This document shows, piece by piece, positions 1 to 24,960 of a DNA stretch of 64,000 nt. Origin of the DNA: Diphasiastrum complanatum (lineage: Eukaryota > Streptophyta > Lycopodiopsida > Lycopodiales > Lycopodiaceae); contig MU831900.1 in NCBI GenBank assembly GCA_029204225.1, positions 1 to 64,000 of the forward strand, written 5' to 3'. Each line of letters starts with the position of its first letter. Position 1 is the first letter of the stretch. The notes beneath the pieces were generated by a model that saw nothing but the letters and a program-made list of their open reading frames with translations, was not told the DNA's origin and searched no databases. The position numbers and the translations under genes were made by a program.

Positions 1-1473
1 TCTGACTAATCAAAAGCTTACCTCCTTCAAATTAGAGGGAAATATGGAATTCAAATATTATGGCCCCAATTAGAAATCATGTGAAAAATATTGGTTTTGG
101 TCCTGTCAAATAAAAATGAAATGTGTAGTCACTAATAAAAATATCAAAAGGACATGCTATTACTGAAAGTAATGTATTGATGGTGCATCCTAGACGTACA
201 GAGCTGCCTCAGCTGCAGAAAACACTCCAATTTCTCTAGAAAAAGATGTGCGTTGGCTATAGGGGGATTCAATCCTGCTTCAGCCTTTCAAAAAGGGAAA
301 ATCTGCCTTGAAAAATAGCACTGGCCCTCCTCAGAATAGAGCTCTGATACTACTTCTCCTACATATCGTTGGTTGTGGGAAAGGAGCACTGATCATGAGT
401 CAATTGGGTCACCTTCTCCACCCCCATGCTCTCTCTCTCTCTCTCTCCCCCCCTCTGTTTGTATGCAATAAAACTTTAAACGGTAAACATGGCAGCATGC
501 AACTGGGCCACATCCCAAGCTCGGCAAATCACCAAAAGCTACAGTGTAGAATGAATCTCTTCAAATCTCTTCCCATCCTTAAGTAACCTTATAGCTCCTA
601 CTTACTATTCAGTTCCAGGGCATGTGGTATCCATGGGGGTTGCCCCATAAGTACCCCGAATTGCTAAACAACACCAGCTGGAGTCTATCTGTTAGCACCC
701 CCCATACACTGCCACAACCAATAGTGGAACGATTGGGCCACTCTGGTCGATTGTCGACTAATCCTAACCCCAGCGCATATAACTACAGGCGAGCATTGTC
801 AGGGGGGCACGACAATACTCATTACTACACAAGCTCGTGGCGTGCACCGCGCCCTGCACGACTAGCAGGTGCCCCTTGGTGTGATCAGTCACTAGACCCT
901 AACGATTGTCACAACACTTTGTACTTACTACTCCGAGTGGGACCACGACCTGGGTCCTAGCAACTTGTACCATCAGTTGTCTGTGACATCTATCAAATGA
1001 TAAGATAGATCTCCCACTTGCTAAACCACTAGCCGACAAAATCGGCAGTGCGTTGCTAGTGCCTGTGTAACAAGGGACTGGATATCCTTGTTTTCATGTA
1101 ATTGATAAGCCTAAGATTGAAAAGGGTAAGCAGGCATAAAAACATGTGTAAAAGAGGGATGCACGTATCATGATTGAGCGTGTGGTAGAAGAAGAAACCT
1201 GGAAGGAGTCGGCGGGTCACCCAACAAGGTCTGCAACATGTTTTTGACACTGGTCCACCAACTTCAAATGATCTTTCATGTCCTACTTCGGGGTATCAAT
1301 GACCATTTTCGCCATAGCTGGTAGACCCTCAGGGTTGAACTATTAGGCAAGGAAGGGAATTTATAAGAGAAGGGAGATGAACATCATTCTCTTGATTTTC
1401 CATAATTACTACTAAGAGATAAATTCACAATATAAGAAGAATCGAAAAAGGAAAACACAATGTTACAAAAAAG

Positions 1474-1537
<64 letters not shown>

Positions 1538-2555
1538 TAAAGCAAAGACTTACTAAGGAATTTCGAAAAAGCAAACAGATGCGATTTTACAAGTTTGAAC
1601 GCTGAAAGAGCAAACACAAAAATCAAAGATGGAGGGGAGAGTTCTCTCTGATTCACACAAGGAAGTGATTGAGCCTTCGGAGGATCTTAAATCTGCTCCT
1701 ACAGAGATGCGCTGAAAAATCATAAGTTTTAGCTTGTTTGCTGGCTGGCGCATTTCAAAAAGAACTAATTTTTTCCTTTGAACTTGAACGCTGGGCCTAT
1801 GGAAGGTAGGTATTTGTCTAGCCCGTCAAAGCAAGGAGTTTTTGCCCTGGAAATCGATGCTGGGCCTCCTGAAAGTAAAATGCGGCCTTAGCTGCATAAA
1901 ACCCAATTCTCTTAAAAATAAATAAAAGTGCGTTGGCCCTGTTTTTGGCCTTCAGCTTCTAAGTCACTCATCCAAAATAGATGAAATCTGACTAGACTAG
2001 GTCACCCTAGTGCTGGGAATCGACTCCTAAAATTTCAGAAAGTTTTACCAAGCATTTCTCTCTCAACAAGGTGATTTTACTCCTGCTACCTAGCCCTGTT
2101 CTTTTACCAATTACATTGTCACTCATGCAATTAACCTTACTGTGAGGATCTTCTGCAAAACTATTCTATGTGAGTCTGTTGCGATTGCTCAGAAAATAAC
2201 AAACTTTCTACAGTAGCTCGTTTTGAACAATAATGATGACTAGCCACATTTTTTTTTTCTTTGTAAAGAACACAGTTATAAACATATTTCCAGCCCACGC
2301 CCTTGTTGTTTCACAAGTATTCACTCATATAGGATCTTTTTGCTCTGATGCCATTCCAAATGTCAGGGTGATACTCCTTCTAACATTCATTAGTCAGCAG
2401 AAGCATTCATCAATCAATCCTTTTGACAACGTAGAAAGATCAACACACAAGCAATAGAGAGAGAGAATCAACCACAAGAACACGACGCTATGTATTAGAT
2501 TTATCTATCACAACATACAAGAGCATCTCCATAATGAGAATTTTAAGAGTTAGCA
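1..2555. other. Gene-free stretch, 5' flank
   Basis: I see no convincing gene here. The open frames at 308-586 and 622-960 have no recognisable motif and read like chance translation; 622-960 is GC-richer than its surroundings. The stretch holds a short CT tract near 429-447, a long TC tract at 1,478-1,534, and two diverged copies of a roughly 60-bp repeat (205-260 and 1,881-1,940). Confidence 0.5.
1478..1534. repeat. (TC)n microsatellite
   Basis: An uninterrupted TC dinucleotide tract of about 57 bp. It generates an artificial Arg-Glu open frame on the minus strand. Unlike the tracts at 2,556 and 6,645, I see no LINE 3' end beside it. Confidence 0.95.
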
Positions 2556-2595
2556 TGAGAGAGAGAGAGAGAGAGAGAATAGAATAGAATAGAAT
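2556..2595. repeat. (GA)n plus AGAAT repeat at a LINE 3' end
   Basis: A GA tract (2,556-2,578) passes into a short AGAAT pentamer array. It abuts the 3' end of the minus-strand LINE and is best read as that element's 3' tail, because the second LINE copy ends in the same way at 6,730. Confidence 0.8.
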
Positions 2596-2781
2596 ATATT
2601 AATGTCTATATAGTGCCCTTGGGCACATAAGACAAAGAAAAAGTACATCAGAAAGGAGCAGTGTCCATGTCGGACTTATTGCTATCAACTACAACTAAAA
2701 AACAGAGATAAACTGGAAATAAAAACCAAAGCTTAACCTCCAGCTATGGTGAGGGTACCAAAGCAATAGCTTAACCACCAG

Positions 2782-3440
2782 CTACGTGGAGGAATAAAAC
2801 TCACTAACTGAGAGAGAAAAACTGTGTGATCTGGTGTGAGGCACATGGTGGCCTCTGGTGACGAACTCTGGATGGTCGAGGAAGACGCTGGAGCTTGGGT
2901 CAACGAGCTGGAATGTCAATCTCACTATCCGAAGTATCTTCCCTAGCTCTTTTCTGAAAGAAAAGTGTAATATGTGGCTGGCCGCAGTCAACATCCTGAT
3001 CATCTGACAGAAGTGAAGATCTCAAAGAGAACATCTCTCGCAAAAGTAAACCAACACATCTCGCATCTGGATAGGCAAAGAAGGAACCAAGCGTGAGTGG
3101 AGTGTCCCAATATAGACAGTGGTATCTGCCTCTGATCTCATAGTAAGCTAGACATATGAAAATAAAGTGAAACTCATCCTCAACCTCATGTAGAGTACAA
3201 CACTGACAGATCTGTAATGGGTGTGGCCTGAGAGAGATAACTCGGTCTAACGGGTAGCCCTAAAGCATCCAGGTGAAGAAAGTGAGTGCGGTAGAAATGA
3301 AGCTTAACCCGTGAGGGATCCAGGTGAGACCAAACAGTATGTATGTATGCTCTGTAGATCTGTCGGCGAATGAACACATGAGTCCCATTTGGGAGGTCAG
3401 ACATATATAATCCCCAGCTATGTAGAAAGTCCAAGCATAC
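2782..3440 (-). pseudogene. LINE ORF2 C-terminal Cys/His region and 3' end
   Basis: Downstream of the RT, the minus strand reads a segment with ICQCC, then HEVEDEFHFIFIC and PLTLGSFF. This is the pattern C..C..., E.E.HF.F.C found at the C-terminus of many LINE ORF2 proteins. The second LINE at 6,731-7,279 encodes a close relative, HGVETEEHFIFSC followed by PVTLHSLL. This match proves that the two insertions belong to one family and that this reading is coding-derived. The last part (3,003-2,782) is weakly coding-like and may be C-terminus or 3' UTR. Confidence 0.65.
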
Positions 3441-3445
3441 TGAAA

Positions 3446-4650
3446 CTATGAAGACTTAGCCCGCTGCTCGGCCAAAGTGCGAGAGGATGTAAAAGCTGCT
3501 ACCACGTATCTGGAAGACTCAAGCTCTGAGACTCTATGAATGAACGTGATGATCCTGAAAATAGCTTCTACAATCAGTGGAGGAGAAGCATATAGAGCAA
3601 ATGGGGTGGGTGATAAGGGACATCCCTGCTTTACTCCGATCGTACTATGGATATATGAAGAGCATCCATCTCCATCACGGAATCGGGCCAAAACTCTCTC
3701 GTATAATGTGATGATAGCAGCAATGACTTCCTGTGAGAAACCAAGGGATGCCAAACGCTGGAGCAGCAAGTGTCTCCCGAATCAAATGCTTTGCGGAAGT
3801 CGACAAAGCAGCAATAGACTCTCTGTTTCCTGAACTTCGCCGCCTCAATGATACACCTCAGTATGAATATCTGGTCCGTTGTGGAATAGCCTGCTCTAAA
3901 ACCAGCCTGTCCCGTAGCATATAACTCCTCTGTCTCTACATAAGAGCTGATGATAGACTGCATAACTGAACCATAGAGCTTAGCCATAGTGTGACCGATC
4001 ATAATAGTACGATAATTGTCTACATTCAAAGGATCACCAGCTTTAAGTATAGGGTGCAACAGGTTAGTACACCAGGATGTGGGAAGGCCAAAAATAAAAG
4101 ATTGGTTAAAAACGTGGGAGATGTATGGAGCAACAATATGGGCGATAGGTTTTAGAAAGTCCATACTTAGAGAGTCAACATCAATGGCTTTATGGTTTTG
4201 ACCATTTTTTATGGCATTTTCAATCATGGAGTGAAAAGGGTGAATTCTGAGGGTCGCGGTGAGAGAGAGATGGAAGGAGAGTCAATTGTATAAATTCTTG
4301 CAGCATAGTCAATCCAAGATTCAATGGCAATAGGAGCCGGCATACATGAGTTTTTAGAAAACATCTTCCAAAAGAAGGTAGAAGAAGAGGAGTCCAAGGA
4401 ATCGATGAGTTTCTATGCCAGAGACTGAAAGTACGTAGTCTTTTTCCGCAAAGTCATTCTATGGTATTCTTTTTGTCTAGATGGTAAGGTGTCGGGAGAA
4501 TGGTATTGAGCGTGAACAACCTGCTTGTGTAGAGAGAGGCACTCATCATCATACCATCTATTGTAAGTGCCTTTATGAGACGAGAAAGTTTTCGGAGGAT
4601 ATGCAGCACTGGCTGAGTGAAGAAGCGACTGAGATAAAAAGTCGGCTTGT
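3446..4650 (-). pseudogene. LINE ORF2 reverse transcriptase domain, broken
   Basis: The RT would copy the element's RNA at the nick made by its endonuclease. Visible family motifs on the minus strand are TYNRWYDDEC in the linker near 4,560, TGQAGFRAGYSTTDQIF, motif A CFVDFRKAFDS (around 3,810-3,778), and motif B' GVKQGCPLSPTPFALY (around 3,637-3,590). The reading changes frame between motif A and motif B'. After FALY the text continues as RYVVAAFTSSRTLAEQ, where Y/FADD followed by VVLL would be expected, so the catalytic Asp pair appears lost. More sequence, normally the RT thumb, is then missing before 3,434. This copy could not make active RT. Confidence 0.8.
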
Positions 4651-4654
4651 TGGT

Positions 4655-5580
4655 CTACCGAAGATGAGAAAGGGAAATCGGTGAGCAGTGTGGCCAGAGA
4701 GGAGAGAAAGATGGACGATTGCGACGTGTGGAATGAGGTGTCATAGCAGTACCACGAGTGGCACGGCCCATAGACAGGAGCAATAGAGAGTGATCAGAAA
4801 TGGTAGAGTGCATAATATGAAAAGTATGAAGAAATGGAATCAAGGCTGGTGAGCCAATGAAGTAGTCAACAATGTTGTGACCACCCCCGTGCGGATGACA
4901 GGTATACACAGATGATGATGGCCATCGAGATAGGCCATTCAAAATGGCTAACGAGTGAGCTTCTGCAAGTCCAATCAGCTGTTCTCCAAAGTGTGTAGCC
5001 GGGTATCTGCATCCTGAGAGGTCCTATCCAAACTCACATCCAAAACCTGGATATGTAGGAAATCTCTATTTGCATGAAACTCTGTCTGCTGGGTGCTGGT
5101 ACGAGCATTAAAATCTCCTGCTAAAAGAATAAGGCCCTGCTGTGCAAAGCTGGCTATATCATCTGAGAGAGCCTGGAAGGGGTCACCACCATAGTCTGCA
5201 AACGCTGATGTCTGAGGTGCAAAATAACAAACTGCTATAAAGAGATCTTGAGGTAGCCCCAAGTAGTGACCAAAAAACTGTAACCAAATGAAACTTGCAA
5301 ATGGATCACCTTTGAGCAGCCTAAAATGAGTACGATAAACTTCCTTGGTAAGACATGCAACACCACCAAAGCCACGTGTGGTTTTTCCTCGAACGAAAGG
5401 CCTGTATGCTGAATGCCATGAATAATCCTGAATGGCTGGAAGGGGTCGATATAGTGATTCATGAGTCTCTGCTAAGAGAAAAATATCACATTGCTGCAAA
5501 AAAGAGTGAAAGTCTCCTGCTGAAGAAGATGAAAGCACATCGTTACAATTCCAAAAACCAATTCGTAATGGCTGAGGGGA
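4655..5580 (-). pseudogene. LINE ORF2 endonuclease (EEP/AP-endonuclease fold), broken
   Basis: This is the N-terminal domain of ORF2, which nicks target DNA to prime reverse transcription. The text starts IGFWNCNDV, followed by CDIFLLAETHE (metal-binding Glu), RGFGGVACLTK, AVCYFAP and LAGDFNART (the GDFN box). After a frame change near 4,990 it continues HNIVDYFIGS and TISDHSLLLL (the SDH box that ends the fold). Motifs and order match the exonuclease-endonuclease-phosphatase family. The start just after ORF1 (stop near 5,614) fits the usual ORF1-ORF2 arrangement. A single indel therefore splits an otherwise complete domain. Confidence 0.85.
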
Positions 5581-5613
5581 TCTTGGGCTGTTGTGCCTGG
5601 GATCCCCGACTTC

Positions 5614-6639
5614 CTATTGTGAAATTTTATCGTAGAATTTAGGCTTGCCTTTAATAAAGGCCACTCTTTGATTCCTAGCATTGGCCTCATGAATGACCAA
5701 TATCCTCGCTTGCCATTGTGTGTGTGTTAGATCTTCATCCATAAAAATAAAAGATCCTTTGAGCTTAGCTCGAAGGCGTAAAGCAGCATTGCGTCGTTCA
5801 ATGGAATGAAACTTTAGGAATAAGACCTTATCATCAAATTTGCTCCGCCAAGCAGTGTCAAATCCCTCCATATTATGTGCAAGCTTAGATACAAGAAGGT
5901 CTTTTGCCTCATCAAGAGCCTTGTTTCCATTAGGAATACCCCTAACTCGTATATTAAGAGCCTTCTTGGCACTTCTCTCATGTTCCGTAAAAACATTCTC
6001 TAGGGTAGAATTCATTAACGAAGGCTGAACTTGGCTAGATAAATTACCGTCCTGCTTAAGAACTGAAGCCCAAGTACTAGTTTCTTCCACTTACTTTGCC
6101 AAGGACGAGATTTTACTTTCCACATCTTGCTGCGAATGAGTATCATGCATCCCTTTCTCTTTCATCATGTCAATAGTGCTTTGCAAATCCTTATTTTGAA
6201 GAATGACCCTGGTAAGTTCTCCATGAAGCGTCTGATTTTGTAGCTGTAATTTCTCGGTAAATTGAAACACTTCTTTGAGCTGATGTTGTAAGTAGCTGTG
6301 AAGAGAATCAAAGTCGGATAAGTTGCTAGGTTGTAATTGCTCTGCAGGGATATGATAGGCATCTACAAAAGATAAAAATCGGGACCGGTACATTGGCAAT
6401 GCCCGGCAATGGAAGATGAGGTGATGACTGGCTGACAGCTGAAGAGCCAGCGATGGCCAGGTTAGCAGGTGATTGGCAAGCAGGAGAAGAGGGGGGCGGA
6501 GGAGACCCCCCCTTTTTGATTGAGGCCATATCAAAGATGCTGACAGGGCCTGAACGGGACAGAACCTGAGGACAGGTAGGGACTGGTCAGGGAAGGCAGG
6601 ACCGGAGCGGTAGGGCGGATAGGACCTGAGCGGAGGACC

Positions 6640-6640
<1 letters not shown>
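5614..6640 (-). pseudogene. LINE ORF1: coiled coil plus L1 ORF1p-like (Transposase_22-type) domain
   Basis: ORF1p would coat the LINE RNA. The N-terminal part is Pro/Leu-rich and is followed by a heptad-like stretch (LHSYLQHQLKEVFQFTEKLQ, LHGELTRVILQNKDLQ) typical of a trimeric coiled coil. After an in-frame TAA at 6,091-6,093 the same frame continues with NIRVRGIPNG, KVLFLKFHSIERRNAALRLR, KGSFIFMDEDLTHTQWQAR and KGKPKFYDK. This is the signature of the L1 ORF1p RRM plus C-terminal domain (VRGIP, LR.RA.LKGS, DED.T..QW). Plant L1s more often carry an RRM with a CCHC knuckle, so this architecture is notable. The open frame runs on upstream through the GA tract, which cannot be native. Confidence 0.75.

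Positions 6641-6644
<4 letters not shown>

Positions 6645-6730
<86 letters not shown>
6645..6730. repeat. (GA)n microsatellite, tail of the second LINE
   Basis: About 86 bp of GA with a few CA interruptions. It is followed directly on the right by TTTATTAATGTC, which matches the sequence right of the first LINE's tail (ATATTAATGTC at 2,595). It is therefore the 3' tail of the second LINE and marks the 5' limit of the first. Confidence 0.85.
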
Positions 6731-6734
<4 letters not shown>

Positions 6735-7277
6735 TTAATGTCTTTTGAGTTCCATAAGGTATATAAGACTGAAAAGGAGTACATTTCACATGTGTATAAC
6801 AATAAGGGAGTGTATATATACGTCTCCAAGCTGAACTACTCAACATAAATAAATAAAGCTAGTGCGACTGAATTATAGGACTAGCCACTAGCAGATACAA
6901 TGTCCAAATACACTATCAAGAAATAATATGCGGTCACAAGCTGGTACTTTGTTGCATGATCTTCTCGTGTTTGCCTTGATGTTGATATGGAATAAGAGAG
7001 TCGTCATCTGAATCGTCCCTCTATTCCATCGCCCTGTGAAGAAGGTAGTGACTTGTTGGCTTTGTGATATACCAGCCCTCTCATGTGTACTACTCTGAAG
7101 TGTAGCATCTCTGAACTGGGACATCTCTCTGAGCATGAGGGCAAATTCTGATCCTTGAACTCTAGCAATGAGTGCAGGGTGACTGGCTGATTTAAAAATA
7201 GACTACTATCTCCGACAGATCTCATAATATAGTGGCAGCTGAAAATGAAATGCTCCTCGGTCTCAACACCATGGCTT

Positions 7278-7279
<2 letters not shown>
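6731..7279 (-). mobile_element. Second LINE of the same family, 5'-truncated 3' end
   Basis: About 550 bp of a minus-strand LINE 3' end. The reverse complement encodes HGVETEEHFIFSCHYI and PVTLHSLLEF, matching the C-terminal Cys/His region of the LINE at 3,200-3,100. The terminal sequences next to the tails also match (ATTAATGTC, then a short stretch, then TATAAGACT or CATAAGACA, then AGTACAT). Truncation at 7,279 abuts another GA tract. 5' truncation is normal for LINE insertion. Confidence 0.8.

Positions 7280-7334
<55 letters not shown>
7280..7334. repeat. (GA)n microsatellite
   Basis: About 55 bp of GA at the 5'-truncated edge of the second LINE. It may be the tail of a still older LINE or part of the insertion site. 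No third LINE 3' end is recognisable to its right. Confidence 0.9.
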
Positions 7335-7337
<3 letters not shown>

Positions 7338-17699: not shown

Positions 17700-18560
17700 A
17701 AGCAAGAGGTCAACATATAGCTTTCAACAAGCTTGCAAAGCCTAAAGCTAATGTTGCATTAGTGCCTGGTGCAGATGTCTTTCCTTCAAATAGCGTCGAC
17801 TGGCAAAACGTGAAGTCCTTCACTAGAAAATTCTTCACCATACACGCCAAATATGGAGAACTAATATATGGTGGTTTGGCATCCTCTGCCCTGATAAAAA
17901 TGGGCATTTTCTTTTACGATCACATGTACGAAGTTCCAAAAAGAAAACTTTGGCCAAGGCAAATTAGCACCAATTTCTGAGCCTACGATTGATTCTCACG
18001 AGTGGCCATACGCTGACCAACTGACTATTGAATTAACGAAGAGGCAACTTCTCAAAGAGATTACTGGTAATATGAAGCCAACACTTGGATCCAAACGAGT
18101 CTACACTAGCATCTCTGTGCCGATTACCGTATTTGTTTCCATATTTAAGGCGGTCCCCTTTAGGAAATCAAACATGATGTGGGCTTGGAAAGAAACAGAA
18201 TCATCACTGTTGGATAACATATTTGTCGCATGGGATTCAAAGGAAATGTAGCATAAAGAGATAAGAGATTTAATAAGGTGTAAGCTCTCTTGTGAAACAA
18301 TGACCATAAGGTATCATATTTCACGTCAAACATGCTCCTTAAGTTTCATCTATAGGCGATATAAGTTTGGTCATGGCCCGATGGGACCCTCTGGACGCGG
18401 AGACGAATCAACAAGAAGTGGAGATCCCCATACATTTGCCCCATGATGAGATACGAGAAATTCATATCAATAAATAGTGCAGCCTAGAAGATCTTCGACA
18501 TATGCTTGGATTGACTTTTGCTGATGTGCCAGTAGATTTTGTCTTTACTCGTAATGGACA
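17700..18560 (+). pseudogene. Unrecognised coding-like segment
   Basis: Right of the Copia relic, the plus strand reads protein-like text that does not belong to Copia. It includes VALVPGADVFPSNSVDWQNV, KSFTRKFFTIHAKYGELIYG and MGIFFYDHMYEVPKRKL. After one frame change near 17,955 it continues ISEPTIDSHEWPYADQLTIE, LTKRQLLKEITGNMKP and MMWAWKETESSLLDNIFVAW. Near 18,500 a further piece, LEDLRHMLGL...FVFTRNGQN, ends at a good splice donor (AAAAT/GTAAGC). LEDLRHMLGL loosely resembles MHDLQHILGL in the minus-strand gene at 21.7 kb. I do not recognise the family. It could be an exon set of the accessory cluster that follows. Confidence 0.4.
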
Positions 18561-19061
18561 AAATGTAAGCCCCTAATTTCCATTAGATTCTTGAATTTTA
18601 AATAGTAATGTTGAATACATATAGGATTATTAATTTTGTATCTGGTTTTGCAGATACGGAGACGAGCCGAAAAAGGTCAAAAATTGTTTCATTTTTACAA
18701 ATAGGGACATTAGAAGTCCAATGGAATAAAGGATTTTATCTAATGAAAAATAGAAAACACAAAATTTTGGTTGTGTTTTGACTCTATTCTAATATAAATT
18801 TGGTTATGTTTTGACTTTACTTTTGCGTTGTCACATTTTATATGCCTGTTAGTACATTTGTGGATGTCCAAGGTTGAAATTACTTGTTAGGGTTTTAATC
18901 GTTTAGTGATATGCATTTTAATAATATTACTGGTTTTCTTTGAAGGTCTCCGCTAACCGGCAATTAGGATTTTTACTCATGAGCCAAGACAAGAACATAC
19001 TATATTTGAAAAAGAGGTCAAAACTTTTTTAGGGGCACTTACAAAAAATAGAACCCTTCAC
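18561..19061. other. Upstream region of the H3-like gene
   Basis: AT-rich, no ORF of note. It contains a possible intron and then the promoter region. TTTTTAGGGGCAC near 19,026 resembles TTTTTAGAAACAC upstream of the convergent gene at 22.3 kb. Confidence 0.4.
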
Positions 19062-19069
19062 TATATAAG
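19062..19069 (+). promoter_or_regulatory. TATA box of the H3-like gene
   Basis: TATATAAG lies 134 bp upstream of the ATG at 19,196. It is followed by a C/T-rich leader (CCTCATTTCTCCACTTCATC), as expected for a plant Pol II core promoter. The convergent gene has TATATGAG at the same distance from its ATG. Confidence 0.55.
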
Positions 19070-19183
19070 GGTGCTTGGGTCCTCATTTCTCCACTTCATC
19101 CCTCGAGTGTCAAAGTGTCAGTTTTTTGAGATTCTCTGTTTTTCAGCTCTCGTATTCTCTGATACATTTTCAAAGGCTAATCA

Positions 19184-20366
19184 ATGTCGAAGGAAATGGC
19201 ACGGACGAAACAAATGGCTAGAGATCCCAGAGTGACTGCATTGCTCCATAGAGATGCACTAGCCATCCTAGATGAGAGAGAGAGATGGGGGAGCAGAAGC
19301 AAGAGTAGGAGTCGCATCCCAACAGCGTCTCAGGATGATCCAGCCACTCAGCATGAAGCTGAGGAGGACATGGCCCACACAGTAGCTGCACAGGAGGACC
19401 AGAGTGAGCAGCAGCAGCATCAACAGTCACCACGACAAAAAAGCCCTTCCCCGACAACAACCGAGCGGGAGGAGGAAACAATGAAGTTCCTGGATGAGGA
19501 GCTTGCGACATCGGGTGAGTTGTCGATTCTTAATGATGCATTCTTCGACCCATTTCCACCAGCAATGGGCATGGACACAGCAGATTTGAGGATATCGGGT
19601 GACACCACACCTATCGTGTCACCCTAAGTCACGGCCCGGTGATGGGTCCGATGATGTCGTTGCTGGTGGGTGGTTCTGATGAGGGCACCCCGATGTCGCA
19701 CACAACAAGGATGAAGCAGAAGGTGACACACAGATGGTTAGGGAGAGGAGCACATGAGCGAAAAAGAAAGAATCCTCGCGAAGCAGGCTCTACATCAAAG
19801 CGACAGAACTCTGCAGTTCAGCAACCATCACCACTGCCCACACCGCCAACATCGCCTCCACCGTCTCCACCACCTCCGCCTCCACCACCACCTCCACCAC
19901 CTCCTCCTCCACCACCACCTCCACCACCACCTCCACCTCCACCTCCACCACCTCCTCCACCACTTCCACCACCTCCACGTTCTGCCGCAGCTGGCCCAAG
20001 TAGGACCGTAGAGCATGGCAAGGGTAGGCCGGCCCCTCGTGCAGCACCATGGGTTGGAAAGGAGCTCCGCAGGATGCAGCCACCACATCCTCGACCGCGT
20101 AGGAAGCGCAGGATCGCAAAGTGGCTCCAAGATATATGGAGTTATCAGAAGTTTATAAAATTTCTGATACTAGGGCCCCATTTGTGAGGCTTGTAAAAGA
20201 AATAATCGATGAATTTTCCTTAGGGAACAGAGTTACGGCAGATGCTATGTCCACGATACAAGAGTTTGAGGAAATGTACCTAACACAACTTTTTGAGGAC
20301 TCATTTTTGTGTGCAGTCCATGGGAAGAGCCACCTAGCTAGAAGGCTAAGGAGAGAGCGCAATTAA
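19184..20366 (+). pseudogene. Histone H3-like gene with long acidic/proline-rich insert, frame-broken
   Basis: Seen: the second ATG (19,196, context GAAATGGC) starts MARTKQMARDPRV, like histone H3 (MARTKQTARKS). An acidic, Ser/Gln-rich region follows, then a basic stretch (HERKRKNPRE), a polyproline run (about 19,855-19,975), and a basic segment RPRRKRRIAK. After these comes a histone fold: WLQDIWSYQKFIKFLI (H3 alpha-N LREIRKYQKSTELLI), APFVRLVKEIIDEF (PFQRLVREIAQDF), STIQEFEEMYLTQLFED, FLCAVHGK and LARRLRRERN. By hand, 24 of 50 residues match H3 from PF to H.K. Loop 1 has H3 length, not the longer CENH3 form. Loop 2/beta-2 (RVTIMPKDI) is absent. K4 is kept; position 9 is Asp. Two frame changes (near 19,627 and near 20,160) break it, unless they are sequence errors. 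Inferred: a divergent H3 mimic carried by a mobile element. Confidence 0.8.
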
Positions 20367-20437
20367 AAATATCATGTACATGATTTTATTTATAATATAT
20401 TGAAGATTTGGTGTCAAGTATATTGAAGAATTTCAGG

Positions 20438-20564
20438 TTATGTGAATGCAAATTGTTGTGATTGAGTTTAATATCTGATTTCAGTACTATTTATGTGAAT
20501 GCAATGATTTGAAAATTTTAGTACCATCTATGTGAATGCAGTGATTTAAAATTTTCAATACTAT
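20438..20564. repeat. Three imperfect tandem copies downstream of the H3-like gene
   Basis: Copies start at about 20,438, 20,491 and 20,528. Each contains TATGTGAATGCA followed by A/GTGATTTGAAAATTTT or a variant and ending with AGTACTAT-like sequence. Period is 37-53 bp. Confidence 0.65.
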
Positions 20565-20615
20565 GGGAATGGTAGTTTCTTTAAGCATGTTGTAGCTAAG
20601 ATATGTTTCCTTGCC

Positions 20616-20705
20616 TTGGCATGAAAATCACGCCAAGGCGCGACCAGGGCCATTTTGACATGGTCAAACGACCCCTGGTCGTGCCCTGGCGTGATTTTCA
20701 CGCCA
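20616..20705. repeat. Compound inverted repeat (long hairpin) between convergent genes
   Basis: Arms of about 42 bp (20,617-20,658 and 20,662-20,704) pair across a 3-bp centre with only a few mismatches. Each arm contains its own small palindrome, GGCRTGA-AAA-TCACGCC, so a cruciform with side hairpins could form. It is GC-rich in AT-rich DNA and lies between the 3' ends of two convergent genes (20,366 and 20,834). It could be a bidirectional terminator, a small foldback element, or a structure recognised by the element's transposase. Confidence 0.8.
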
Positions 20706-20833
20706 CAGAAAAGACAAAAGAAATTTTTATCAGAGAAAAAAAAATTAAATTCTAAATTCAAAGAATAAGCACATCATACAATTATAACAGATAATTAGGA
20801 GAGTCCACAAGAAAAAACCGACAAAATCTTTAT

Positions 20834-22306
20834 TCACATTCGGTCCAGTTCCTTCAGAGAGGACTTCAGCTTCTCTAATCGCTTTTCTGATGACAATACT
20901 GGTTTTAACATTTCTAATGCTAATTTAGAGGCATCACTCTCATTCTCATAAGGGCCAATTAGACCCGAGAGAATGAGCCAGGTCTCAAATCCTGGGCAGA
21001 AATCATTCAAAACGACTTTTCGGAGGACACAGTAAGCCTTTGGCGCTGACGGTGACAACTCCACCTCACCAATGTGCTTGGAGAGTGCTTTGTATTTAAG
21101 AAGCTCCATCGGTCCATCTGGACTATACTTGTTGCTGAAGTAGAAAATAAAGTTGTTGGGCAAGTTCCCAATGTAGTGGGCCAAAGACCTGTCCAGAGTT
21201 CCTGCTTCAACTTTCTTCTGAACGCCACCCCTTCACATAGCAAATGCATCAAGCTCCACTGCGTCCTACGTTTGGTTCAAATTATTGCAAAATGAGTATA
21301 ATGAAGACAAACAAACATAACAAAAATACACAAGTTGAATTGTTGGGTCAGACTTGCCTCGGTCCCTTCATCAATGTCTTCGGTTTGCGCAAGCTGAATT
21401 CCTTTGCCTTTGTGCTTCACGTCAGCAGTTTTCCCTTCGAGTACCTCGAATGGCCTCGTTTGAACTGGTGGTGGTTGAAGCGTTTTCAATTGGCAAAGCG
21501 CTCTTGCCAGTGCTTGCTCGGTGGTGTCCGCGTCATGGCCGATCAGCTTCTCATACGTGTTGTCAGGTTGGGTGTCAGCGAAAGTGGAACTGCCATTCTG
21601 CAAATTTACCAACGCTGCTAGCATCTCATCTTCTCGCAAGCCAAGAATATGTTGCAAGTCATGCATGAACACATACTCTTGCCCATCAATGATGATTGGA
21701 GCAAGGCCATGGATTCGAAGCATGACATCATCGGACTCATCGATATCTTCTATCTCCGCTAATGTGGATGCACCTGTCGCCTCTTGCGCAGCCAAGACTG
21801 CTTCGTGCTCCACGGATAAATCTTCCTCTTCACCCGGGTCGTGCATCTCGTTCACCTGCTCACTAGGATTGTGTTCGTTGTGGCCCACAGTCGCTGGAAA
21901 CTCATTAAGCAAAAAAATAATTGTAATCTCACCCGGATAGAAACTTCCTTCCTACACTTTCAAGATCAAAAGTTTTCAGCTGATCCTTGGTCAGCTCCAA
22001 GTAATGATCGTTACCCAAGTGACTAATAAATCTATTGAGACGAGCAATAAAGGGTCTATCTCCTTTTCATATATAACTAAGCAAGTTATATGGAATCCAC
22101 ATGATAGTTGAGCCAGGAATTTGTATGGCATAAGGCTTCAAAGTTTCATCTATATACTCACTCACATACGTGAATGCATCCGTATTAGCCCGTAGAGTGG
22201 CAAGCGTGTCTATTCTACCAGTGAACATACAATAAATACGATCTAACTGATCTAAAAACTGTGTGGGGGCTAGCAGATTGGCCAACTCTATTGTAGAGGA
22301 TGACAT
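20834..22306 (-). pseudogene. Unrecognised gene convergent to the H3-like gene
   Basis: I do not recognise this protein. From an ATG at 22,306 it reads MSSSTIELANLLAPTQFLDQ, TLKPYAIQIPGSTIMWIPYN and, after an in-frame TGA, LNRFISHLGNDHYLELTKDQ. Next come an acidic region (EEEDLSVEHE, EIEDIDESDD) and a conserved-looking IIIDGQEYVFMHDLQHILGL. The last exon (acceptor near 21,271) ends with LAHYIGNLPNNFIFYF, AYCVLRKVVLNDFCPGFETW and a charged C-terminus EKRLEKLKSSLKELDRM. A TATA element lies about 130 bp upstream. Stops and a shift near 21,240 show decay. HDLQHILGL loosely resembles the LEDLRHMLGL text near 18,500. Its position beside a transposase-like gene suggests an accessory gene of the same element. 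Confidence 0.5.
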
Positions 22307-22432
22307 TGTGATGCAACTAAGAACACTACTTTACCAGCTAACTAGTAGTCTAATTGAACAAGACAAGCTAAATTACGAGGAAAGAAATTTCAACAAAGCA
22401 AGAAATGACAACAAAATGAAAACCCCCACTCT

Positions 22433-22440
22433 CATATAGA
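22433..22440 (-). promoter_or_regulatory. TATA box of the convergent gene
   Basis: On the minus strand CTATATGAGAGTG lies about 130 bp before the ATG at 22,306 and is followed by GGGGGTTTTCATTTTG. This resembles CTATATAAGGGTG...GGGTCCTCATTTC at the H3-like promoter in both sequence and spacing. Confidence 0.45.
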
Positions 22441-22570
22441 GGGACGTGTTTCTAAAAATAGATATTATTATGAAACAAAATAAAGCATTTCTATTTATAA
22501 CAACAATCCAATTTGTCAGTAATATTTATCACAAAGGAATATTCGAATTACAATCCAACATAAATTGCTT

Positions 22571-24330
22571 CTATTCCATCTCATCAGTTTTCGTAGCTTC
22601 TCTAGCGTTGTTTTCCAAAACATTGGATGTTGGTGTCCTCGGCATCCATCTCTTTTCAACTCGAACTCTAGACATCCTCCATTCTTGATACCTTGTTTTA
22701 GCATTAGAGGATTGCCATGTCGTCTTTCTAACTGAATTTGAATTGGAGATCATTGAACTCAACTCTTCAGTTCTTGTGTTTTGAAAATGTCCTCGGCCCA
22801 AAACTCCTCTGTAAAACTATTGGAATATCCCCACCAATGCATTGCTAAGACCCTTTCCTCCGCCATGGCGTGAATTTTTGAAATATGCAGCCTTTGCCCT
22901 GTAATGACTCTTTTCCATGCCTTGCGTATTCCAGATAGCTAATGATCCGTAGGTTTTCATAAACCAAGGTCCATGAGCATAGAAGATGTGTTGTTCATAG
23001 AAAATTTGTATTAGTTTAAATCTTTATAATTACATAAATACGAAAGTAAAAAATATGAGACACACATACCATATAGTGAGTTATGTGTGTTCCTCCCTAT
23101 GCATCGATCATCAATTCAATAAATGTTTTGACTTCTCTTGCGTATCTGTCCAAATCTTCATCTCTGACAATTTCTTTGTTGATAGTTTGTGAATGCTTGC
23201 CAAACCTTAGCACGTGTACTTGCCATGCAAGGATCTGAGCCAATATTTGTTGTGCATTGACTTATTTTCTTCCAGTATTCCCATTCAACACTGCTTTCAC
23301 GTGCAGTATGATTTGACAATAAGTGTCTCGCTTTCGCACCACCCATTGAAACTTTTGCTGGAACATCTTGCGTTTTTCCACTCATCTCAACGTCTTTGGT
23401 AAGGCTCACGTGGCCCCCATGCAATCCCATATCGGATAAAATTATCTCTAGATTTCTAATGCTAACATCTGCTCTTGATTTGGGCTGCATGGTCTATTGG
23501 TAACAATAATGCAAAAATAATAATTTGTCCAGTATTCGTAATTCACCATGCATTGTGCAAAAATGGACTCTTTTGAGAGGAATGTTCAACATAGGACTCC
23601 AAGCTTTGTCTAGATTGTGCCTATTTGGTGCAAGACGTTGGTTGCAATTCAAAATACTTTTGTTCCGCCCAGATTCAAACATACAATATATACAAAAATT
23701 CTTTGCATTTGCACCAAGACCACAACCGTACATGCATTTCAAGGTCTTCAAATCAGCAGCTAGGTGCCATTCTACAGCAAAGCTTTCTCCTTCAACATTG
23801 AGCAATTTGCTTTCATTTTGTGCATGTATTATCTTAGATATACTACATTTTTCAAATAGCCACTCAAGTACGTCGTGAAACTCCTTAGGAACTTCAAATG
23901 CAGCTATCCACCATATGTGATTTTCGGATTGCACGCTAAATTCCTTACAATAACTTCCACCAAACTGTTGAAATTCACGATTCATCAAGGTGATTGTGAC
24001 ACGTTCAAGTTTACACCCTTTTACGATTTCTGTTTCGTCCAACTTAATAATAAATATAACTTTACCTCCGCAATATGTAAAACAAAAATTTCATTACGAA
24101 AACATATTAGTTGAAGAAAAGCATACAATTGAAAACCGAAATCCACAATAAATGTTCTTACTATTTGTTTTAACTTCGTAATGTCGGATCATCATCGCTT
24201 GGACCTTTTTCAGATCTAAGAATATATTGTTGCCTTGATGATAATGAAAACATGTCGGAGGTCCTTTCTTCTTATTGGTTACTGTAAAAGAATCTTCAAT
24301 ATGCTGAAACTCTCCTAATTCAGAGAGCAA
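22571..24330 (-). pseudogene. DDE-transposase-like gene, superfamily unassigned, broken
   Basis: Exons on the minus strand. The first (24,330 to about 24,165) has GPPTCFHYHQGNNIFLDLKK and ends at an A/GTAAGA donor. The second (about 24,075-23,070, donor near 23,069) begins VIFIIKLDETEIVKG, then EWHLAADLKTLKCMYGCG, NAKNFCIYC and RVHFCTMHGELRILDKLL. The third carries GSLAIWNTQGMEKSHYRAKA and AYFKNSRHGGG, then a basic tail ending near 22,571. The candidate catalytic set is D (about 24,038), D (about 23,753) and E (about 23,543), with a CxxC between the second D and a CTMHxE motif. This is the layout of several poorly classified eukaryotic DDE transposases. Damage includes an in-frame TAG after HYCYQ and frame changes. 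What it cuts is unknown. Confidence 0.55.
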
Positions 24331-24369
24331 AATCGAATTGCATTCTCGTTTGGTGGATTCAACAAGTTT

Positions 24370-24960
24370 ATAAGTAGGTTAAGAATTTTTTTGAGCAGCT
24401 ACCTATCCCTTTGAGGTCGCCCACCAACAAGCAATCTTCTGCACCAAACCGCTCTTCAAACAGCATTCGATTGGATTCAAACCAATCACAAATGCCAAGC
24501 AACCCTCCAAAAGAATTTTTCAGCTCCAATCTTTGCTTGCCTTCTGATTCAGCCGACAATTCCCTGTCTCAGAGTCCTTTTAACAGTTTCGAGTCGTTCC
24601 ACGAATCTCCACAGACTCGGTTTTGTGCTTCCTAGCCAACAAACCGTCGTAAATTCGCAGCTCTCTGTTCTTGTCCGGTAATTGTAGCCACCAAGGGCTC
24701 TGATTCCAAGTTAAGAAAATAGTTTAAAAACCCGACCGGATCAATCACCACAGCACAACGTCAAGTGCAATAAGACAAGACGACAAAATTGCTCTCCACA
24801 AATTGTATATTCAACTGATAAGCAAGTACAAAGATAAAGTTGCTTAAAAGCACTCAAAGGGCTCGTAAAAGAAAGACGGCCCGACAATTCTAGAACTGAG
24901 CACACATGGTGCCGTCGAAATAAGAAAGCACTGTATACGTCGATCATTGATATTTTAACT
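24370..24960 (-). mobile_element. LTR retrotransposon fossil: LTR end, primer site and leader
   Basis: On the minus strand a region shaped like the end of an LTR (24,960 to about 24,713) is followed by TTGGAATCAGAGCCC, a primer-binding-site-like sequence (compare TGGTATCAGAGC). An Arg/Glu-rich gag-leader-like reading (EQRAANLRRFV, then FGGLLGICDWFESNRMLFEE) follows down to 24,370. No other parts are visible and the family is uncertain. Broken. Confidence 0.4.

Follow-up and report, generated by a model that had tools for sequence, protein, structure and literature searches.

The closest precedent that we found for the gene described here is provided by fungal hAT transposons with a captured histone H3 gene. 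In Pyrenophora tritici-repentis a hAT transposon with an H3-like gene is reported to occur in 10 long and 16 short near-identical copies (PMC3538342); in the Mycosphaerellaceae a hAT-captured H3 was amplified to hundreds of copies, which are reported as inactivated by RIP (PMC6710886). Transposons also encode anti-silencing proteins: VANC of the VANDAL transposons is such a factor, described as sequence-specific (PMC10398659, PMC5735166), and VANDAL proteins, TET/JBP and SET proteins are named as anti-silencing genes carried on transposons (PMC12730594). Among the papers listed in searches on histones and transposons, which covered mostly non-subscription literature outside Repbase, none concerned a histone gene carried by a plant transposon.

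Here we describe an H3-like gene, H3L, carried by a multi-gene DNA transposon of Diphasiastrum complanatum. Like the P. tritici-repentis element, this transposon has inverted ends and an H3-like gene with tail insertions that fits neither H3 nor CENH3; however, that element is a fungal hAT, whereas here no hAT domain was found among the ORFs scanned and no target-site duplication was seen, and divergent groups of elements each have the gene (PMC3538342). In the Mycosphaerellaceae, too, an H3 coding sequence was multiplied by a DNA transposon, but those copies are reported as RIP-inactivated, whereas in the present case some copies are open and the fold bears signs of constraint (PMC6710886). 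VANC resembles what we propose for H3L in being a plant DNA transposon gene that counters silencing; it is described as sequence-specific, whereas H3L would act as a histone (PMC10398659, PMC5735166).

A broken H3-like gene in a transposon remnant

The window, by which we mean the whole analyzed stretch of 64,000 nucleotides, contains a dead copy of this transposon-carried gene (Table 1). The original prediction had recognized it as H3-like, and both profile and sequence searches bear this out: the 87 amino acids encoded at 20103-20363 on the forward strand (terminal letters SHLARRLRRERN) match the Pfam Histone profile PF00125 with an E-value of 2.3e-11 and a score of 44.4 bits, above the cut-off of 26.4, and retrieve 175 distinct PDB sequences at E<=0.01, with H3.2 as the best match (1.7e-10). 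An AlphaFold model of this fold fragment has helices at residues 22-39, 46-73 and 77-86, at a pLDDT of only 60. The N-terminal frame starting at 19184 reads MSKEMARTKQMARDPR..., with ARTKQ, A7, R8 and D9 in frame as had been described; the Met of MARTKQ lies at 19196, and a further in-frame ATG, on which the original prediction was silent, stands four codons upstream at 19184. Between tail start and fold the product is acidic and proline-rich. The copy had been suspected to be dead, and its two frame breaks were located near 19624-19627 and 20169-20172.

The lack of loop 2, which had been taken for a trait of the protein, turned out to be a lesion of this copy. RVTI.PKD is gone after HGK near 20328-20331, and among 46 aligned copies about 25 fold positions are absent in the window and in L002 only, against 0-11 in the others; with 44 of the 46 free of the deletion, it was rejected as a feature of H3L. 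L002 (G000:C3:44338431-44338691) is 99% identical to the window gene, has the same deletion, and is either a segmental duplicate or a second haplotype of it. Open relatives read RVTILPKD with small changes at this place, and the loop R(V/L)TI(M/L)PKD with its preceding His is kept in the aligned genes of all three families discussed below.

The gene lies in the truncated remnant of a larger element of what we term family 1, delimited by blastn of three both-ended elements against the window, with main pieces of 84-93% identity. Neither of the family-1 inverted ends was found in the window, and both are hence missing from the remnant. An imperfect inverted repeat (ATCACGCCAAGGCGCGACCAGGGCC...) is present at 20613-20706 between H3L and ORF B, and pieces like it match inverted in other elements. 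Elsewhere in the window, LINE-like reverse transcriptase and endonuclease frames were noted by eye on the minus strand at 3631-5613.

Table 1. Features of the family-1 element remnant and its H3-like gene in the window
Feature	Position	Strand	Basis or remark
Truncated family-1 element remnant	17749..24379	+	corresponds to positions 844-7335 (of 8546) in the L017 element
ORF A remnant	17749..18446	+	family-1 ORF A homologous to frames in family-3 locus
H3-like gene (H3L), broken	19184..20366	+	frame analysis, Pfam, PDB, alignment of copies
Upstream in-frame ATG (MSKEM)	19184..19186	+	ATG at this codon in 35/36 ungapped family-1 copies (45 rows)
H3-like tail start MARTKQMARDPR, D at position 9	19196..19231	+	K4, Q5, A7, R8, D9 in 36/36 ungapped family-1 copies (45 rows)
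Polyproline run, minisatellite-encoded (CCTCCACCACCA-type)	19855..19978	+	
Histone fold	20113..20363	+	frame break near 20169-20172, loop 2 deleted near 20328-20331
ORF B, 3' part	20834..21232	-	
ORF B, middle part	21277..21951	-	
ORF B, 5' part (MSSSTIELANLLAPTQF...)	22067..22330	-	
ORF C (putative DDE transposase), 3' part with H(4)H and QGMEKSH	22571..23023	-	
ORF C, central part (SMGGAKARHLLSNHT...)	23158..23493	-	
ORF C, part with two candidate Asp and C(2)C (CIYC)	23494..24090	-	by eye
ORF C, upstream part	24094..24378	-	

Family 1: copies, ends and gene content

The search covered one genome (1.745 Gb in 5176 contigs). With the 87-residue fold as query, the best 150 of 2898 first-look candidates were scored, all at E < 1e-21; this total, like those given below for two further families, comes from a loose first look, and the searches may overlap. 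Most of the 150 scored matches are eight codons longer than the part of the query that they cover, indicating that the loop deleted in the window is present in them. Twenty loci of 10 kb each were fetched, selected for their long frames, and most copies proved to be broken. The three coding parts that the window gene presents separately are joined in a single frame, running from the MS..M start into the fold, at four of these loci (L010, L011 and the near-duplicates L026 and L027). Among these four only L010 has ARTKQ unchanged, and it encodes 412 residues from MARTKQ with a Pfam Histone match of 6.7e-29. The proline-rich insert of the original prediction is a usual feature of family 1; the genes read from families 2 and 3 showed no such insert.

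Comparison of the loci revealed a common block with sharp boundaries, formed by CATTAGGGCCCTTTTTGGACTCAAAAAGGGCCTCTTC and its inverse, with the left end found in 10 of the 20 loci. Four elements have both ends, measure 6.4, 8.3, 8.5 and 8.9 kb, and start and finish with CATTAGGG...CCCTAATG. Genome-wide the end pattern occurs 923 + 905 times, against 0 for the backward control. Among the ends listed, two facing pairs lie only about 1 kb apart (G000:C1:67871296-67872435 and C4:15745948-15746971) and are probably short non-autonomous forms. Inverted ends, many copies and, as discussed next, empty sites mark family 1 as a terminal-inverted-repeat DNA transposon.

Within these ends, ORF A and H3L are encoded on one strand and ORFs B and C on the other. 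Among the ORFs scanned against Pfam, only H3L scored above cut-off and no hAT family was detected. The family-1 H3L gene stops at the histone fold, with no C-terminal extension. In L023 (reverse strand, from 3916) an open frame of 391 residues couples the beginning of ORF C with the H3L fold, a natural chimera within a rearranged element. In L026 (reverse strand, ~2660-3400) a Gypsy-type reverse transcriptase frame was seen by eye between ORF A and H3L. An origin of family 1 as an LTR retrotransposon was rejected on account of the inverted repeats at its ends; this Gypsy piece and a Copia-type one in L051 look nested by eye.

Empty sites and affinities of the transposon

In the L052 locus an H3L gene is interrupted by a nested 2.4-kb element bounded by CATTAGGG...CCCTAATG, and the corresponding empty site is found in L048; no extra base is present, implying a target-site duplication of zero bp. 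At the family-1 element of L013, inserted in a repeat that we read as copia-like, all 40 scored empty copies (of 1130 candidates) span exactly 180/180 of the joined flanks; the flanks share CA, yet alignment of the empty copies to the joined flanks leaves not a single base unmatched. The spans of the empty copies of the L017 site are 178-181, blurred by 1-2 nt, which excludes only longer duplications. A TTA/TAA duplication of the Harbinger type was rejected, as TTA...TAA is part of the inverted ends and the empty sites have no extra bases.

A group of DNA transposons that comes close is the CMCT clade, whose described marks are CA..TG ends, the transposase motifs C(2)C and H(3-4)H located between the second D and the last E, and duplications of 2-5 bp (PMC12730594). 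CA..TG ends are shared by these elements (CATTAGGG...CCCTAATG in L017 and in the nested element of L052, with one or two terminal bases deviating in L013, L022 and L026). In ORF C we recognized by eye two candidate Asp residues, CIYC as a C(2)C motif and H(4)H, both before a final Glu, and QGMEKSH; H(4)H and QGMEKSH are conserved between families 1 and 2, and in L017 the second candidate Asp is replaced by N. Comparison of ORF C with Pfam profiles and PDB sequences gave no match, and an AlphaFold model of an ORF C exon was unusable (pLDDT 35). These motifs suggest that ORF C is probably a CMCT-like transposase. The element differs from the clade in its zero-bp duplication at the L052 and L013 sites, in the absence of a Pfam transposase match, and in having four genes, one of them a histone; because the missing duplication does not fit, we do not assign it to the CMCT clade.

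Divergent families with the same gene

A search with a canonical H3 query listed 13 full-length H3 genes with 97-99% identity to plant H3, together with genes on C7 (twin matches) and C8 that fall outside both this host set and family 1. The latter led us to define two further groups. For family 2 (L049/L051) the best 150 of 7447 candidates were scored and are 77-100% identical; for family 3 (L048/L052) the best 150 of 6054 comprise 81 rows of 81-100% identity, with the rest mostly at 63-70%. Many of the scored H3L matches in both families lie in long open frames. The folds of these two groups are 44-47% identical and match PF00125 at 7.5e-25 (family 2) and 5e-22 (family 3). One to three copies each of families 2, 3, 3b and 3c were fetched, the last two as single short stretches.

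H3L of these groups adjoins homologues of some of the other family-1 genes, a context that the original prediction had overlooked in a gene that sits in a multi-gene DNA transposon. In L051 of family 2 they correspond to ORF C and the 3' part of B; in L052 of family 3, to ORF A; and the 5' part of B is common to L051 and to L048 of family 3. The similarity of A (families 1 to 3), of C and the 3' part of B (families 1 and 2) and of the 5' part of B (families 2 and 3) lies far above 200 shuffles in each case, except that the middle of B of families 1 and 2 only marginally exceeds its shuffles (67, with a shuffle maximum of 63). The stretches read showed neither an ORF A in family 2 nor an ORF C in family 3. 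Copia-type gag-pol frames were noticed by eye beside the family-2 genes (L051:5764-7989). In both families 2 and 3, H3L and B form a divergent gene pair, and their H3L proteins share a C-terminal extension (score 133, the highest of 1000 shuffles reaching 52). Following this extension, family 3 gives a weak match to Peptidase_C48 (PF02902, Ulp1-like) with an E-value of 0.028, below the cut-off, and an Ulp1-like catalytic motif (QQVDSFSCGWYAIK) is found there at L052:4433-4687.

Family 2 ends were not seen in the stretches read, and for family 3 one end was found: a CATTAGGG end of its own, present 67 + 68 times genome-wide against 0 for the control. When 100 of these 135 ends were paired with 81 of the 150 H3L rows (three lower rows of 79-92% being excluded), 28 of the 81 rows had an end within 8 kb downstream, against 0 in the wrong orientation and 0 upstream. 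That H3L is a transposon gene is, on the whole, almost certain: the case is solid in family 1 and has good support in family 3, and for family 2 the presumed link to a transposon rests on the shared genes. The placement of H3L beside homologues of other element genes in two divergent groups makes it most likely that an old transposon lineage has kept H3L as one of its regular genes, and that it is not the product of a one-off capture.

The tail of H3L and signs of selection

H3L and canonical H3 have the ARTKQTAR start in common, and differ in that H3L is without K9, K14 and K27, has an insert or an extension and is carried by a transposon. Position 9 is D in families 1 and 2, P in family 3, L in 3b and G in 3c, and is never Lys in these five groups; K14 and K27 are judged absent by ungapped position. 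In the 36 ungapped family-1 copies, K4, Q5, A7, R8 and D9 are invariant, and the neighboring residues vary to some extent (R2 is retained in 29, T3 in 28 and T6 in 31). K4 is present in all sampled copies of all groups but one, the family-2 copy L059, where it is N; in the family-3 copy L058 Ile replaces the first Met. The upstream in-frame ATG of family 1 stands in a context judged weak and the MARTKQ ATG, found in all 36, in one judged strong. An exposed ARTKQ end in family 1 consequently depends on the choice of the second ATG as start. The family-3 gene of L048 has no Met ahead of MARTKQ in its frame.

Between the window and L010 the fold has dS 0.349 and dN 0.050 (dN/dS ~0.14), and against L017 the window gives a pN/pS of 0.22 in the fold, with the other parts at 0.21 (A), 0.15 (C3), 0.30-0.50 (B), 0.45-0.75 (C2) and 0.47 (N-terminal part of H3L); the copies were chosen as good protein matches, and such estimates are biased towards low dN and constraint. 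In pN/pS across pairs, with C1 left out because its rows lay in a wrong frame, the C2 parts look near-neutral in many cases (0.45-2.12), the change in the family-1 tail insert looks weakly constrained or neutral (0.39-1.55), and there is apparent constraint on A, B, C3 and the H3L fold. Comparisons between groups give a dN of 0.52-0.55, and dS is 1.66 (families 1 and 2) or saturated. The dS of the fold between the window and L017 is 0.35, compared with 0.07-0.19 for the other genes, perhaps as a result of recombination between subfamilies. On a tree of 44 family-1 copies (of 46 fold rows, with L003 and L035, the latter having no N-terminal row, excluded), the internal branches of the fold carry 45 nonsynonymous and 40 synonymous changes against a neutral ratio of 2.02:1 (p 0.005); the terminal branches carry 118 and 65 and look neutral (p 0.27), and a direct contrast of the two, taken alone, falls short of significance (Fisher p 0.08). 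Constraint is weaker in the N-terminal part (ratio of 0.75 on internal branches, p 0.012). This pattern of substitution suggests purifying selection on the fold, and H3L is likely to be a selected, working gene.

Possible roles of H3L

Plants use H3K9 methylation to hold DNA methylation on transposons. We propose that H3L would be made when the element is expressed, would pair with host H4 via its retained fold, and would sit in nucleosomes on or near element DNA; with the K4 region kept and K9, K14 and K27 lost from its tail, these nucleosomes could not take H3K9 methylation. As a whole, a transposon-encoded H3 variant that cannot be methylated at K9 and acts against silencing is our best explanation, with a probability of about one half. 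The anti-silencing mechanism in itself, suggested by the preserved fold together with the loss of K9 and the retention of K4, seems to us the likeliest one and is put forward tentatively. The original prediction had already conceived of an H3 that keeps K4 and escapes K9 and K27 marks; this gains support from the absence of Lys at position 9 in all five groups, and the mechanism itself is still one that we infer. More speculative again is the proposal that these elements constitute an undescribed superfamily of plant DNA transposons, with zero-bp target-site duplications and CATTAGGG ends, whose own H3 variant predates the split of the families and was selected to keep its K4 end and lose K9 against silencing.

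H3L might instead serve transposition itself: it could package the DNA of the element, guide the transposase to its targets or tag newly made copies. Its repeated association with A, B or C and the divergent H3L-B pair of families 2 and 3 would agree with such a role, and the homologous C-terminal extension of these two families, with the sub-threshold Peptidase_C48 match behind it in family 3, could be part of it; however, the family-1 gene ends at the fold and lacks any extension, and we regard this role as rather unlikely.

That H3L is a passive passenger, a captured host H3 multiplied without use, has the fungal hAT elements as precedent (PMC3538342, PMC6710886), and is in keeping with the broken state of most fetched copies and the neutral-looking terminal branches. 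Against it stand the two further groups, so divergent in their folds, in which H3L lies beside homologues of other element genes and often in long open frames, as well as the excess of synonymous change in deep comparisons and the alteration of position 9 in each group, which together make it an unlikely account.

A third alternative derives H3L from CENH3, as a protein that would help elements to persist near centromeres. Families 1 to 3 group together (UFBoot 71) and then with CENH3 (89), in a small tree of H3L, H3 and CENH3 sequences with long branches, the latter grouping being possibly due to long-branch attraction; a LIP.APF motif in family 1 is also like that of grass CENH3. Yet the family-1 fold is about equally identical to H3 (50/97; 52/94 for family 2 and 43/91 for family 3) and to three CENH3 sequences (44/97, 47/96 and 48/97), the alignment is short and long-branched, the tail start is H3-like, and the family-1 matches listed are spread over many large contigs. 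Loop 1, which is longer in CENH3, had originally been cited against CENH3: its H3 length is confirmed in family 1 and holds for family 3, with one extra residue in family 2, but the argument is weak given the grouping with CENH3. H3L may come from H3 or from CENH3, and a CENH3-derived protein that aids persistence near centromeres appears improbable.

An ordinary host pseudogene or variant H3 gene with no transposon link, for which the clear H3 homology might speak, was rejected and has next to no likelihood, in view of the large numbers of first-look candidates (2898, 7447 and 6054, with the best 150 of each scored), the conserved flanks and inverted ends, the contradicting empty sites, and the separate existence of the 13 full-length H3 genes.

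If the transposon-encoded, anti-silencing H3 variant is the correct reading, a histone kept by divergent transposon families would represent another anti-silencing route, in which the substrate of the silencing mark is itself replaced. It would make testable whether non-host histones can alter the chromatin state at their own DNA. Moreover, many of the genes counted as histones in plant annotations may belong to transposons.
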